Shown in pieces: positions 27,137-42,210 of a DNA stretch of 64,000 nucleotides. A program made the translations under genes and the position numbers. How positions within the stretch are numbered: the first letter of the stretch is position 1; each line of letters begins with the position of its first letter. A model generated the notes under the pieces. The model was not told the origin of the DNA. It did no database searches and saw only the letters and a program-made list of their open reading frames with translations. This stretch comes from Alphaproteobacteria bacterium (GTDB lineage: Bacteria; Pseudomonadota; Alphaproteobacteria; SHVP01): the NCBI GenBank assembly GCA_016869765.1, contig VGES01000020.1:1-64000 (forward strand), read 5' to 3'.

Positions 27137-27260
27137 GGGACGGGCTTTGCCGTTGCGGGCACTCATATCGTCGGGCCCCTCCGGTGGCAAGCCTCTTGCC
27201 CATCGCACTCACGCATTTTTTCGATCGCTACCTGCGGCTCGCGCCGTTAGGGTTCCGCGC

Positions 27261-28169
27261 ATGGTTCCGCTCTCCGCCTTCGGGCCGAAGCCCTTCGTCG
27301 TGCACAGCCCGACCGAGCCAAAACTTCCCTTCGTCTACGCCTCCCCCCATTCGGGGTCGATCTACCCTGCGGAATTGATCGCCGATTCGCGGCTCGATCC
27401 GAAGACGCTGCGTCGCTCCGAGGACGCCTTCGTCCAGGACCTGTTCGGCGCCGCCCCCGGACTCGGTGCGCCGTTGATCGAAGCGTTGTTCCCGCGGGTC
27501 TTCCTCGATGCCAACCGCGAACCCTATGAACTCGACCAGTCGATGTTTGCCGAAGCGCTGCCGAATTTTGCCAACACGACCTCGGCGCGGGTTTCGTTGG
27601 GTTTGGGCACGATCGCGCGGGTGGTGTCGAACGGATCGGAGATCTATCGCCGGCGTCTGATGGTCGCCGAAGCCGAGGCGCGAATCGAGGGCCTGTATTT
27701 TCCCTATCACACGGCGCTCAAGCAGTTGCTGCTCACCGCGCGAGCGCACTTCGGCGGCGTCGTGCTCGTCGACTGCCATTCGATGCCTTCGACCGGCGGC
27801 CCGATGGACGAGGACTCGGGCCGTGCCCGAGGCGACATGGTGCTCGGCGATCGCTACGGCATGAGCTGTGATCCGCGGGTCGTCGAACTGGCAGAGCGCA
27901 CGCTGCGTCGGATGGGATATCGCGTGACCCGCAACGAGCCCTATGCCGGCGGGTTCGTGACGCAGAATTACGGCCGCCCGCACGAAGGGCTGCACGCGCT
28001 GCAGATCGAGATCAATCGCGCGCTCTACATGGACGAAGTGGGCATCCGGCCCAACGCCGGCTATGCGCGGTTGAAGAACGATGTTGCGGCCCTGATCGCC
28101 GAAATGGGCAAGGTCGACCCGGCCTGGTTGGCGCCGGCCGGCGAGCGCTTCGCCCAGGCCGCGCAATAA
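27261..28169 (+). CDS. N-formylglutamate amidohydrolase family protein
   Basis: YASPHSGSIYPAEL, FLDANREPYELD, DCHSMPSTG, YGRPHEGLHALQIEINRALYMDE. Confidence 0.9.
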   Translation: MVPLSAFGPKPFVVHSPTEPKLPFVYASPHSGSIYPAELIADSRLDPKTLRRSEDAFVQDLFGAAPGLGAPLIEALFPRVFLDANREPYELDQSMFAEALPNFANTTSARVSLGLGTIARVVSNGSEIYRRRLMVAEAEARIEGLYFPYHTALKQLLLTARAHFGGVVLVDCHSMPSTGGPMDEDSGRARGDMVLGDRYGMSCDPRVVELAERTLRRMGYRVTRNEPYAGGFVTQNYGRPHEGLHALQIEINRALYMDEVGIRPNAGYARLKNDVAALIAEMGKVDPAWLAPAGERFAQAAQ

Positions 28170-28185
28170 CGACCCGGCAAAAAAG

Positions 28186-28213
28186 GGGCCCGCCTACGTT
28201 GGCAGGTGGGCCC
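28186..28213 (+). terminator. Putative Rho-independent terminator/hairpin
   Basis: GGGCCCGCCT - loop - AGGTGGGCCC, directly after the CDS, A-run on the 5' side. Confidence 0.65.
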
Positions 28214-28377
28214 GAGTTTAGGGAGGAAATACCCAGATAGGGTATTCGGCACCGCTGGCATGAGGCTAACGGTGCCGCGCACTATATATAGGGCCATTCC
28301 CATATTGAGACCAAGGAATATTTCCCGTTCGCGATGAGTATCTGGCCTCGTGTGACAAAAATAGCACTATCAATGAC

Positions 28378-28393
28378 TTGGCACAGGTCTTGC
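28378..28393 (+). promoter_or_regulatory. Putative sigma-54 -24/-12 promoter
   Basis: TTGGCACA-GGTC-TTGC matches YTGGCACG-N4-TTGC with one mismatch; ~45 bp upstream of the downstream ATG. Confidence 0.65.
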
Positions 28394-28439
28394 GACCTTT
28401 TCCGCAGGAAACGCCCTAACACGCCGGGAGAAAACCGAA

Positions 28440-29135
28440 ATGCTCAGGGCTCTGTGGTTACGCTGGTGGCTGGCCAGCGTCGGTCTCGTCCTCGTAGCGC
28501 CTGTCGCCCATGCTGGGCAGGCGCCCTTTTCTGCGACCGTCGCCAAGGTCTGCCGCGACACGATTGCCCGCGTCGAACGCGAACAGGGGATCCCGAAGCT
28601 CCTGCTCTCGGCGATCGCGCTCGCAGAAACCGGGCGCTGGCACGCGGAACGGGGGGAAAGTATTGCCTGGCCGTGGACGGTGACCAGCGGCAAGGACTCG
28701 AGCTACCACCCCAACAAAGAAGCCGCGATTGCCCACGTCCGGGCGCTCCAGGCCAAAGGGGTGCGCAACATCGATGTGGGCTGTATGCAGGTCAACCTGC
28801 ATCATCATCGCCGCGCCTTCGAATCCCTCGAAGAGGCCTTCGACCCGGAGGCCAATGTCATGTACGCCGCTTCGTTCCTGAAGACGCTTCAGGGCGACCT
28901 CAAATCGTGGTCGCGGGCGGTCGCGCATTACCACTCGGCCACCCCCGAGCTGCACACGCGCTACAAGGAAAAGGTCGACAAACTCTGGCAGGGCGAGCGC
29001 CGGCGAGATGCGATCGAGCGGACGGAATCCGTGATGGCAGCCTATCGCGAACGTCAGGCCAAGCGCGAGTCCGACCAGGCCCAGCGGGCGATGAACCGGG
29101 CCAACATCCTGAGTCAGTTGGCGACGTCGCGCTGA
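28440..29135 (+). CDS. Lytic transglycosylase (SLT domain)
   Basis: Signal peptide; LLLSAIALAETGRWH, NIDVGCMQVNLHHH, FDPEANVMYAASFL. Confidence 0.85.
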   Translation: MLRALWLRWWLASVGLVLVAPVAHAGQAPFSATVAKVCRDTIARVEREQGIPKLLLSAIALAETGRWHAERGESIAWPWTVTSGKDSSYHPNKEAAIAHVRALQAKGVRNIDVGCMQVNLHHHRRAFESLEEAFDPEANVMYAASFLKTLQGDLKSWSRAVAHYHSATPELHTRYKEKVDKLWQGERRRDAIERTESVMAAYRERQAKRESDQAQRAMNRANILSQLATSR

Positions 29136-29166: not shown

Positions 29167-30372
29167 TCACGTTTCGCGCGACGGCGGTGGCCGCCGCACC
29201 CGCCGCGCCGACGCCAGCGGAATATTTCCGGCCATCTCCTGGTTGTGGCGTCGCCCTCCCGGCTCGAAATCCTGCAGTCGGACGGGAATTCGTTTGCGAC
29301 CCCAAGTGCCGGGGGCTCCTTCGATTACACCCGCCATCGCCGTCCCGCATTTCCGGCAATGTCCGTCGGGCGTCAAGTTCCATTCATCCAATGCGTGCCA
29401 GTCACGACCGATCAAAACCTCGCCGCAATGGTGGCAATAGGTGCTCGACGCGGCGCGGTCGTGCACGTTGCCGACGTAGACGTAGCGCAGGCCGCGCCGC
29501 ACCGCGATACGCCGCGCCCGCAACAGGGTCTCGTGCGGCGTTCGCGGCTTATCGGTCATTTTCCAATCGGGATGAAAGGCCGTGAAATGAAGCGGCACGT
29601 CGGGACCCAGGTTGTCGAGGATCCACGACGTCATCGCGGTCAATTCCGAATCGGAATCGTTTTCGCCCGGGATCAGCAGAGTCGTGATCTCGAACCACAC
29701 CTTGGTCTCGCGCTTGAGGTAGACCAGCGTATCCAACACGGGCTGGAGGTGACCGCCGCAGACGCGGTGGTAGAACGCCTCGGTGAAGCCCTTGAGGTCG
29801 ACGTTGGCCGCATCCATCCATTCGTAAAACTCGCGGCGCGGCTCCTCGGTCATGTAACCCGCCGTGACCGCGACCGTCTTGATACCGGCCGCGCGGCACG
29901 CCTTGGCAACATCGACCGCATACTCGAGGAAGACGACCGGATCGTTGTAGGTAAATGCGATCGAGCGGCAATCCAGGGCCTGCGCCGCCCGAACCAACGT
30001 CTCGGGCGAGGCCGCGTCAGCCAGCGTGTCCATCGCACGCGACTTGCTCATGTCCCAGTTCTGGCAGAATTTGCACGTCAGGTTGCAGCCGGCGGTGCCG
30101 AACGACAGGATGGCCGAGCCCGGTAGGAAGTGGTTGAGCGGCTTTTTCTCGATCGGATCGACGCAGAAACCGCTCGACCGACCGTAGCTGGTCAGAACGA
30201 TTCCGTGTTCGCCGGCCCCGCGCACGAAACATAGGCCGCGTTGACCCGGGCGCAACCGGCAGAATCTAGGACAGATGTCGCACTGGAAGCGGCCGTCCTC
30301 GAGCCGATGCCAATATCGGCCGGGGACGGTGCTCGGCGATCTCAAGATCTCAGGACCCAGGACATCTTCCAT
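29167..30372 (-). CDS. amrS: AmmeMemoRadiSam system radical SAM enzyme
   Basis: CDICPRFCRLRPGQRGLCFVR, CNLTCKFCQNWD (CxxxCxxC), C-terminal YCHHCGEVLIGR. Confidence 0.92.
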   Translation of the reverse strand: MEDVLGPEILRSPSTVPGRYWHRLEDGRFQCDICPRFCRLRPGQRGLCFVRGAGEHGIVLTSYGRSSGFCVDPIEKKPLNHFLPGSAILSFGTAGCNLTCKFCQNWDMSKSRAMDTLADAASPETLVRAAQALDCRSIAFTYNDPVVFLEYAVDVAKACRAAGIKTVAVTAGYMTEEPRREFYEWMDAANVDLKGFTEAFYHRVCGGHLQPVLDTLVYLKRETKVWFEITTLLIPGENDSDSELTAMTSWILDNLGPDVPLHFTAFHPDWKMTDKPRTPHETLLRARRIAVRRGLRYVYVGNVHDRAASSTYCHHCGEVLIGRDWHALDEWNLTPDGHCRKCGTAMAGVIEGAPGTWGRKRIPVRLQDFEPGGRRHNQEMAGNIPLASARRVRRPPPSRET

Positions 30373-30454
30373 CGCGCGAACTCCTCGCCGCGACTACTGT
30401 GTACTAAGATGTGTCGGACGCGCCGAGGCCACAAGGGGCATCGGCGCCGATGCC

Positions 30455-31843
30455 ATGACGACAGCGGCCAATGTTCGCGCACCGGCGGTGGCCGGGACCT
30501 TCTACCCCGGCGATGCCGAGAAGCTAAAACGCTTGATCGACGGCTATCTCGGCGCCGTACCAATGCCGGCCGATCCCATACGCCCCCGGGCGATCATCGT
30601 GCCACACGCGGGCTACGTCTATTCGGGAGCCACCGCTGCCTACGCGTACGCGCCGCTCCGCGCCTTTGCCGGAACGATTTCGCGCGTCGTGCTGATCGGC
30701 CCGGCGCATCGCGTACCGTTTCGCGGCATCGCGCTGTCATCGGCCCGCGCGTTTCTCACGCCTCTCGGACCCATCCGCCAGGATCTGACGGCGATCGAAC
30801 GCTTGAAGACGATCGCGGGCGTGGTGGCGCTCGATGAGGCCCATCGGCTCGAGCACAGCCTCGAGGTCCAGTTGCCGTTTCTGCAGCGCGTCCTCGGCGA
30901 CTTCCGATTGGTGGCGCTGGTTGCCGGGGCGGTGACGCCTACGACGGTGGCCCAGGTTCTGTCGGTGTTCTACGACGATCCGGAAACGCTGCTCGTGATC
31001 AGCACCGATCTCAGTCACTACCACGACTACGACCGCGCCAAGGCGCTGGATCATCGCACCGTCGACGCGATTCTCGAGGGTACGACCAACGACATCAGCG
31101 ACGAGGGCGCATGCGGCCGGATTCCGGTCAAGGGTATGATGCAGATCGCGATGGAGCACGGCCTCAAAGCAACCTTGCTCGACTACCGCAATTCCGGTGA
31201 TACCGCTGGCAGCCGCGATCGCGTCGTGGGTTATGCCGCGTTGCGCTACGACGATCCGGCGTCCGCACACCTCGGCGTCCGCGATCAGGATCGCCTGCTC
31301 GACCTCGCGGAAGCATCGGTGCGTCACGGGCTGTCGACGGGACAACCGCCCACGATCGTGGTCGAATCCGAGAGCGAGGCGCTGCGGGCCCGCGGCGCCG
31401 CCTTCGTCACCCTGACCAAACACCACGTCCTGCGCGGCTGTATCGGCTCGCTCGCCGCCCACCGTCCCCTCGCCGCCGATGTCGTTGCCAATGCCTATTC
31501 GGCGGCGTTCAAGGACCCCCGCTTCCCGGCCCTCACGGCGGCCGAATGGCCGGAGCTCGAGATCGATATTTCGGTGCTGAGCCCGCCGATCGCATTTGCC
31601 GTCGCCTCCGAGGCCGACCTCCTCGGCCGCCTGCGGGTTGGGCGGGACGGCCTGATCCTGCAGGAGGGAAACACGCGCGCGACCTTCCTGCCCAGCGTCT
31701 GGGAGCAACTGCCGGATCCGAAGGTGTTCCTCGCCCACCTCAAGCGCAAAGCGGGGTTGGCCATCGATCACTGGAGCCCCGACCTCCGATTTTGGCGCTA
31801 TTCGACCTACGCGTTTTCCCGCCCGGTCCGACGGTCCTCCTGA
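30455..31843 (+). CDS. amrB: AmmeMemoRadiSam system proteins B and A fused (Memo-AMMECR1)
   Basis: Memo: RAPAVAGTFYPGDAEKL, IIVPHAGYVYSG, STDLSHYHDY; AMMECR1: GAAFVTLTKHHVLRGCIGSLAAHRPLAADVVANAYSAAFKDPRFPALT. Confidence 0.93.
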   Translation: MTTAANVRAPAVAGTFYPGDAEKLKRLIDGYLGAVPMPADPIRPRAIIVPHAGYVYSGATAAYAYAPLRAFAGTISRVVLIGPAHRVPFRGIALSSARAFLTPLGPIRQDLTAIERLKTIAGVVALDEAHRLEHSLEVQLPFLQRVLGDFRLVALVAGAVTPTTVAQVLSVFYDDPETLLVISTDLSHYHDYDRAKALDHRTVDAILEGTTNDISDEGACGRIPVKGMMQIAMEHGLKATLLDYRNSGDTAGSRDRVVGYAALRYDDPASAHLGVRDQDRLLDLAEASVRHGLSTGQPPTIVVESESEALRARGAAFVTLTKHHVLRGCIGSLAAHRPLAADVVANAYSAAFKDPRFPALTAAEWPELEIDISVLSPPIAFAVASEADLLGRLRVGRDGLILQEGNTRATFLPSVWEQLPDPKVFLAHLKRKAGLAIDHWSPDLRFWRYSTYAFSRPVRRSS

Positions 31844-40044: not shown

Positions 40045-42210
40045 TCAGTCGAAGAAGACGCCGAACATCAGGCGGTCGGGATCGAGCGGAATGTCGCGAG
40101 CGCCGCCACCACTCGGCCCGACCGGCGCCATCCGCCGACCATCGACATAGACGGCCAGCGCGCCGGCATCACCGGCGTTCATCAGGAGGCCTGGTCGATT
40201 CGGAACCTGATACCGATCGCCCGACCGCAGCACGCGGGTGAAAAGCACTTCACCGCCCGGAGCGCGGACCTGAATGGGACTGTCCCCTATGGCGTAGATC
40301 GATATGCGCGAATCGGGGCTGGTCGAGCCGAACACCTGTGGACCCGCCGCCGATGTGGTGGCCGGCGCGGTCGGTGACACCGCCGCGGTCGGTGGGGTTG
40401 TGCTCGGTGCCGGGGGTGTGGGTGTCGTCGCGGCGCTCGGAATCGCACTCGACGGAGCGGCGGGAGACGCCGCGGCCGTGGTCGTTGCCGAGCTCGGCGC
40501 GGGTAGCGTCGGCGAACTGGAAGCGCTCGGTGTCGTGGTCGCGGCGCTGGGCCCGGTCACCGACGGAACGGGTGTCGGTGTCGTCGTGGCAGGCGCGGAC
40601 GACGGCGTTGGCGGAGATGCCGCGCTACCCACGGCGCTCGCGCCGGGATTGGGCGCTGGAGCTGGAGTTGCAGTTGGCGCTGGCGCAGTTGCTGACGCCG
40701 CTGGCCTCGGTGGAGGCGCCGGCGACGTCGGAGGTGCCGTAGGCGTCGAGGCCGCCGGCGTGCTCGGCGTTGTTGAGGCCGTCGACGGACTTGTCGTGGT
40801 TGCCGGCGGCGCAGGCACCGCCGTCGTCACCGTCGGAGGCGGGGTGGCGGGCGCGGGGACCGGTAGACGGGGAACCGCAGGATTGACGGCCGTAGCGACC
40901 GACGCACTTTCGGACACAGGCGAGCCGCTCGGGCGGGTCGCCCCACCCGGCGCCGTTGGCGTTGAACCTTGGGTGGTCGATGGCACGGGAGGGACGATCG
41001 GCGTCGAAGCGGAGACGGCAGGGCGATTTCCGACGGCCGGGTCTGGACCGTCACCGCCGGGTCGACGCTGCGTCGCCAGTTCTGAAGGCCTCGGGGGCGT
41101 CGTGGCCAACGGTGGGGTCGCCGCCGAACCGCCCACCGGAGGCGTCGACACGGCCCCCGCCGGCGGCGGCGATGCAGGAGCTGCCGTCGTTCCCGCCGTC
41201 GAAGGCGTCGGCGAGGCGGGCGGCGGCGCGGAAGACGCCACGGTGCCCGGCGACGACGATGACGTCGCGGCCGCAGGCCGCGGGGATGTGGTGACCGCAG
41301 GCGGAGCGGGCGTCGTCAACGTCACGCTCGGCGGCGGCGATGAACTCGTGGCACTCGACACCGGCGCGGTCGTGGTCACGCTGGGCGAAACGGTCGGGGG
41401 CGTCGGTCGCTCCGGAGCAACCGAAGGTGTCGTCGGCGTTGCTGGGGGCGAGGCCCTAGGAACCGCTGTGGCGCCGCTCGAGGACTCGATCCTTGGCGCT
41501 GGCGCAGGACTGGGCGCGACAGAACCTGTGGTAGATGCCCCCGGTGATACTGCGGCCGACGCACCGACGGGCTCGGAGACGGCGGGCGCGGCAGGAGCAG
41601 GCGTGCTCGGCGGCGGTTGTGGGGCGGCCGGGCGACGTGCCTCGGCGAGCGAAGTACTGGTGCTGCTGTTCTCGGCGGGCGCACCGCCACTCGCGGGCGG
41701 CGCCAAGCGTTCGGGCACCGGCGGCACCAACTCCGCGGTACGACGATCTTCGCGCGTGTAGGCTAGCCAGCCGGCATAGATGACAGCGGCGCCCAGAAGG
41801 GAAATTACCAGTAGGCGGCCCGTCGGGAGACGGCTCTGGTCCATTGGCGATGGAAAATCGAGACGCGTGTTCTGACGCGGCTGGGCCACCTCGCGGCGAA
41901 ATTGCTCGAGCACCCGATCCTGATCGAGACCGATCAGGCGGGCGTACGACCGCAGGAAGCCCGAGGCGTAAACTGGACCGGGCAATTGCGCGAACTGCCC
42001 CGACTCGATCGCCTCTAGGTAGCGACTATTGATTCGCAGACGGCGTGCGGCCTCCTCGACCGACAGGCCGACACGGCCGCGGGCGGCCCGTAGTTCCACG
42101 CCGATGCCGTCGTAGACATCGCGATCGCCAGAAACCTCGCGCAAATGCAATCGGCGACGCCCGGGTGCGCCACCGGGTTGGTCATCGTTGTGGGGTTCTT
42201 GACTTGCCAT
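40045..42210 (-). CDS. RodZ-like protein (HTH_25 - TM - long PTAS linker - DUF4115)
   Basis: N-terminal HTH LRAARGRVGLSVEEAARRLRINSRYLEAIESGQFAQLPGPVYASGFLRSYARLIGLD; TM LLVISLLGAAVIYAGWLAY; C-terminal DUF4115-like domain; rodZ-ispG order. Confidence 0.88.
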   Translation of the reverse strand: MASQEPHNDDQPGGAPGRRRLHLREVSGDRDVYDGIGVELRAARGRVGLSVEEAARRLRINSRYLEAIESGQFAQLPGPVYASGFLRSYARLIGLDQDRVLEQFRREVAQPRQNTRLDFPSPMDQSRLPTGRLLVISLLGAAVIYAGWLAYTREDRRTAELVPPVPERLAPPASGGAPAENSSTSTSLAEARRPAAPQPPPSTPAPAAPAVSEPVGASAAVSPGASTTGSVAPSPAPAPRIESSSGATAVPRASPPATPTTPSVAPERPTPPTVSPSVTTTAPVSSATSSSPPPSVTLTTPAPPAVTTSPRPAAATSSSSPGTVASSAPPPASPTPSTAGTTAAPASPPPAGAVSTPPVGGSAATPPLATTPPRPSELATQRRPGGDGPDPAVGNRPAVSASTPIVPPVPSTTQGSTPTAPGGATRPSGSPVSESASVATAVNPAVPRLPVPAPATPPPTVTTAVPAPPATTTSPSTASTTPSTPAASTPTAPPTSPAPPPRPAASATAPAPTATPAPAPNPGASAVGSAASPPTPSSAPATTTPTPVPSVTGPSAATTTPSASSSPTLPAPSSATTTAAASPAAPSSAIPSAATTPTPPAPSTTPPTAAVSPTAPATTSAAGPQVFGSTSPDSRISIYAIGDSPIQVRAPGGEVLFTRVLRSGDRYQVPNRPGLLMNAGDAGALAVYVDGRRMAPVGPSGGGARDIPLDPDRLMFGVFFD

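Follow-up and report, generated by a model that had tools for sequence, protein, structure and literature searches.

The 64-kb window considered here (the whole stretch of DNA that was analysed) contains a stand-alone SLT-domain gene, slt, at 28440..29135 on the forward strand, preceded by a sequence resembling a -24/-12 promoter. This raises the question of whether the sequence is a true promoter for sigma-54 (RpoN), and what an SLT enzyme under such control would do in this organism. The site, TTGGCACAGGTCTTGC, occupies 28378..28393 (+), with TTGGCACA as its -24 element and TTGC as its -12 element, and a 46-nt gap separates the C of the -12 GC from the ATG at 28440; its position ahead of slt is as described in the first-pass annotation of this DNA. 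That annotation also reported agreement with the consensus YTGGCACG-N4-TTGC at all core positions. The GG at -24 and the GC at -12 are present at standard spacing, but position -20 is A rather than G (TTGGCACA), the sole mismatch to the consensus, and A occupies this position in 11 of 57 aligned relatives.

The slt product is a predicted lytic transglycosylase of 231 aa with an N-terminal signal-peptide-like stretch and a match to PF01464 (1.5e-7; 31.4 bits against a cut-off of 21.3; profile positions 34-100 of 117). E63 (codon 28626..28628, +) is the presumed catalytic glutamate; it lies in an AETG that aligns where SLT enzymes have their ES motif, and is invariant in 44/44 sequences, its position having been assigned from the motif rather than from a structure. 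No solved structure was related to the protein by sequence at E 0.01.

How far does the site exceed what chance would provide? Within the 64-kb window TTGGCACRNNNNTTGC has a single exact match, for a chance expectation of ~0.06 under uniform bases. Across the 3.99-Mb genome, TGGCAC-N5-TTGC occurs 8 times and the reversed control pattern 11 times, so that the core pattern shows no excess over its control, and we dropped enrichment as evidence for a promoter. The motif alone is therefore no evidence that a promoter exists, and this absence of genome-wide enrichment is what speaks for a chance resemblance, in which the 16-mer would be no promoter and slt would be expressed from elsewhere. A simple scan upstream of slt found no sigma-70-type promoter.

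The site rises above chance because it is conserved at orthologous loci. Most of the SLT orthologues gathered from public genomes and from relatives of the window's genome have a sigma-54 site at the equivalent upstream position. Using fixed scoring of upstream segments, 50/76 orthologous SLT loci carry a site matching at least 10 of 11 positions, compared with 10 of 1520 shuffled upstream segments (0.66%). A per-position profile, partly circular in that the sites were chosen by the motif itself, drops at once on both flanks of the motif, and in many relatives the start codon is locked to the site. Each of these observations argues against chance resemblance, which we consider very improbable.

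The site is also associated with rpoN, of which the window's genome has one copy. Perfect 11/11 sites are found in 38 genomes with rpoN and in 1 without, and loci short of a perfect site in 27 genomes that have rpoN and 10 that lack it (Fisher p = 0.003, uncorrected for relatedness); relaxing the threshold to at least 10/11 weakens the association (46 with rpoN, 4 without; p = 0.04). Perfect sites are conserved upstream of slt orthologues and absent where rpoN is absent, with a single exception in a metagenome bin (G049, locus L019), and 19/65 rpoN-bearing relatives lack the site. Besides rpoN, the window's genome encodes activators with the GAFTGA loop (NtrC and a PspF-like protein) and one with GSFTGA; here and below, the names NtrC, NtrX, FlbD and PspF are assigned by gene order, architecture and sequence features rather than by a curated model. 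The deep conservation and the rpoN association support the first-pass claim that a lytic transglycosylase gene is driven by sigma-54 here, and on this comparative evidence slt very likely has a true sigma-54 promoter at 28378-28393. This promoter shares with known alphaproteobacterial RpoN promoters the invariant GG/GC, the correct spacing, and a genome that encodes rpoN and enhancer-binding proteins; it differs in having no recognised upstream activator site, in its target, a stand-alone SLT gene, and in the coincidence of start codon and predicted transcription start in many relatives. What began as a motif guess would then be a deeply conserved alphaproteobacterial sigma-54 promoter, and slt a sigma-54 target not among the nitrogen and flagellar genes of the textbooks.

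If the C of the -12 GC is numbered -12, the usual sigma-54 spacing puts the inferred transcription start at 28405 (+). The predicted 35-nt leader contains a GGAGA Shine-Dalgarno sequence (28427..28431, +) 8 nt before the ATG, which is also found in seven other family members, and the window gene accordingly represents a leadered form. Elsewhere the arrangement differs: at 25/44 loci the first in-frame ATG, 12-15 nt downstream of the GC, coincides with or adjoins the predicted start and mostly opens a signal-peptide-like sequence. A Shine-Dalgarno-like word precedes the ATG at 1/25 of these loci and at 15/19 of those with longer leaders (p = 2e-7, uncorrected for relatedness); one locus counted among the 25, L093, has a second ATG with a Shine-Dalgarno downstream. 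An ATG placed on the predicted start and lacking a Shine-Dalgarno predicts leaderless sigma-54 transcripts. On balance we favour the view that in several lineages, the Acetobacteraceae above all, the AUG would itself be the sigma-54 start, forming a conserved, leaderless, activator-controlled class, and that elsewhere, the window's family included, slt would be leadered with a Shine-Dalgarno, paired with the small RNA MmgR (see below), and retained after the loss of flagella.

In the literature searched we found no precedent linking sigma-54 to leaderless mRNAs. Leaderless mRNAs as such are familiar in alphaproteobacteria, 171 having been mapped in S. meliloti (PMC3616915). The predicted slt transcripts resemble these in having the AUG at the transcription start and no Shine-Dalgarno; they differ in being predicted from a sigma-54 promoter, and they concern relatives rather than the window gene. 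Because leadered and leaderless forms of slt occur in cultured genera, these relatives offer a natural test of the combination of a sigma-54 promoter with leaderless translation. Cultured relatives with the site include Roseococcus, where the predicted start falls on the AUG, Kiloniella laminariae and Pelagibius litoralis.

What the enzyme is for is a separate matter. The first-pass annotation, noting that sigma-54 controls many flagellar genes in alphaproteobacteria, had suggested that it remodels the wall for an envelope-spanning machine. Flagellar transglycosylases include PleA of Caulobacter, of a type comparable to SltF. SltF itself, from Rhodobacter sphaeroides, is a FlgJ-binding protein encoded within a flagellar operon (PMC7277832). 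The slt product shares with SltF a signal peptide and an SLT domain. An SltF-like role would have sigma-54 and FlbD drive slt so that its product opens the cell wall to the rod or stators of the flagellum, with the site in non-flagellated genomes a relic. Several observations are in keeping with this: genes resembling motA and motB are found close to slt (at a distance of one gene in a Roseomonas MAG, and beside the pair formed by slt and an N-formylglutamate amidohydrolase-family (FGase) gene in L019), a distant SLT homologue directly precedes flhA in G031, most rpoN-bearing relatives also carry flhA, and G076 and G081, flagellated relatives with perfect sites, have no GAFTGA activator other than FlbD.

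Against it, FlhA, FlgI and the Flg_bbr_C rod/hook protein are all absent from the window's genome (99.64% complete, 164 contigs), and all three give strong scores in the family members G001 and G006. The slt gene lies outside any flagellar operon here: unlike sltF, it is flanked by the FGase gene, mmgR and an AmmeMemoRadiSam gene. The site is intact in three further genomes lacking all three markers (G003, G005 and G036), of which G003 has flagellated congeners, so that its loss of flagella was probably separate. Two Acetobacteraceae, G064 and G069, keep the site but have neither FlhA nor Flg_bbr_C, and their FlgI gene is broken or split (an in-frame stop or split at C2:283134-284159 and C1:34566-35584, respectively), which suggests decaying flagellar genes. 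G034 (86% complete) has FlgI, and its lack of FlhA probably reflects a gap in the assembly. Among rpoN-bearing genomes, finally, site and flhA are unassociated, the site being found in 39/56 genomes with flhA and in 7/9 without (p = 1).

With the flagellar genes searched for missing, this organism is unlikely to use the enzyme in flagellum assembly, and we regard the SltF-like alternative as improbable overall; some flagellated relatives do leave space for a link to motility in other lineages. The suggested part in an envelope-spanning machine is hence unsupported in this genome; a non-flagellar role is likely in the window's organism, judging from its gene content, and the enzyme probably has a different function, perhaps one linked to nutrients. 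Separately, the same genome encodes five flagellin-like proteins (PF00669; on contigs C8, C9, C13 and C48) despite having none of the three markers; none of the five genes has an upstream sigma-54 site, and we rejected them as sigma-54 targets.

The neighbourhood of slt is itself partly conserved. Upstream lies the syntenic FGase gene (27234..28169, +; PF05013, 7.5e-73), found by eye at eight other loci, and downstream the AmmeMemoRadiSam radical SAM gene (29167..30372, -; TIGR04337), found by eye at four of them. Adjoining the latter, MEMO and AMMECR1 domains are fused in one ORF (window 30275-31843). In some Acetobacteraceae (L056, L033, L016 and L112) slt is near lptA-, lptC- and kdsD-like genes, and the coordinates place rpoN within a few kb; in L112 slt and rpoN are adjacent and convergent.

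Between the FGase gene and the promoter, on the opposite strand, is a gene for the MmgR/suhB/alpha-r8 small RNA (28172..28250, -), comprising a hairpin, UUUCCUCCCUAAAC and a terminator. It matches Rfam RF00519 at 51.8 bits (gathering threshold 41), and its fold is strong (z -6.75). An extra 5' hairpin, CGGCACCG...CGGTGCCG, is predicted at 28251..28277 (-), and similar hairpins occur at two further loci of the family. CTTGGTC-17 nt-CTATAT at 28286..28315 (-), which we take to be a housekeeping promoter, would transcribe mmgR away from slt. The AT-rich tract here had been put forward as a possible enhancer or IHF region; the composition is indeed AT-rich, but the tract contains the predicted mmgR promoter on the minus strand. 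At most of the 40 loci scanned, an MmgR gene on the opposite strand is found upstream of slt. The window's small RNA resembles other MmgR/alpha-r8 RNAs (S. meliloti MmgR, Caulobacter SisA-D) in scoring above the RF00519 gathering threshold and in its CCUCCC single strand and terminator; it differs in lying back to back with the sigma-54 promoter of an SLT gene and, in the window's family, in its extra 5' hairpin.

NtrC is an activator and AniA/PhaR a repressor of mmgR in S. meliloti (PMC8401924, PMC12542648), where MmgR lowers polyhydroxybutyrate (PMC8401924). The PhaR site of S. meliloti mmgR is CAATTGTGCACCGCAGCATTA (PMC12542648), and in relatives the stretch from mmgR to the sigma-54 site is enriched in similar CTGC-N3-GCAA elements (e.g. 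TTTTGCATTGCAGCATT); the window has degenerate versions only. The arrangement suggests joint control of a wall enzyme and a small RNA of carbon storage.

Transcription from a sigma-54 promoter would require an enhancer-binding protein. NtrX was rejected as a candidate: the GAFTGA loop, through which sigma-54 is contacted, is missing from NtrX in every genome read (fourteen loci), and for this reason NtrX of these alphaproteobacteria cannot, on its sequence, be a classical sigma-54 activator. In addition to NtrC and the PspF-like protein, the window's genome has a receiver-type activator on contig C51. In G036 and in the 86% complete G034, both of which have the site, NtrC is the only GAFTGA activator found. 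This, together with the activation of MmgR by NtrC in Sinorhizobium, makes NtrC our best guess for slt, a tentative one. NtrC-type sites are not enriched upstream of slt, with 12/40 loci scoring at least 9 compared with 23% of shuffles, and the presence of FlbD alone in G076 and G081 implies that NtrC either is not the activator or is not so in every genome; the activator may differ between lineages.

Either the PspF-like or the C51 receiver-type protein could instead drive slt through sigma-54 as part of an envelope-stress response. Both exist in the window's genome, and a wall enzyme would suit an envelope-stress regulon; neither type is found in G036 or G034 despite their sites, however, and there is no known binding site upstream of slt. 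We think this unlikely, and slightly more so than the SltF-like role.

Returning to NtrC, the reading we prefer is that RpoN holoenzyme transcribes slt from 28378-28393, starting near 28405, and that the leader with its GGAGA Shine-Dalgarno would direct translation of a predicted periplasmic peptidoglycan-cleaving enzyme. The enhancer-binding protein needed would most plausibly be NtrC, responding to nitrogen limitation, and this is the weak step. MmgR would be transcribed back to back with slt by its own housekeeping promoter, and in rhizobia it is tied to nitrogen status through NtrC and to carbon storage through PhaR/AniA. With a sigma-54-dependent slt placed beside a nutrient-linked MmgR, the locus would couple wall remodelling to nutrient status. 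Taken as a whole, this model of an RpoN promoter, NtrC and a nutrient-linked wall enzyme beside mmgR seems to us somewhat more probable than its alternatives combined, with NtrC its weakest element.

The window's site is not the only copy of the 16-mer. An identical sequence lies on contig C14 of the same genome, ahead of a ~120-nt small-RNA-like element with a terminator (~40866-40998, -; L173:4353-4499; fold z -4.19) that has no Rfam match. The element is conserved in G002, G006 and G008, where TGGTAYG-N4-TTGC precedes it at the same spacing. In the alignment seven pairs are changed on both sides with pairing kept, all of them in the terminator stem and drawn from four sequences. We regard the element as a candidate small RNA under sigma-54 control. 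The genome has further strong sigma-54-like sites, among them L174 5382-5397 and L175 2479-2494, one of which precedes a GGDEF-like (diguanylate cyclase) protein.
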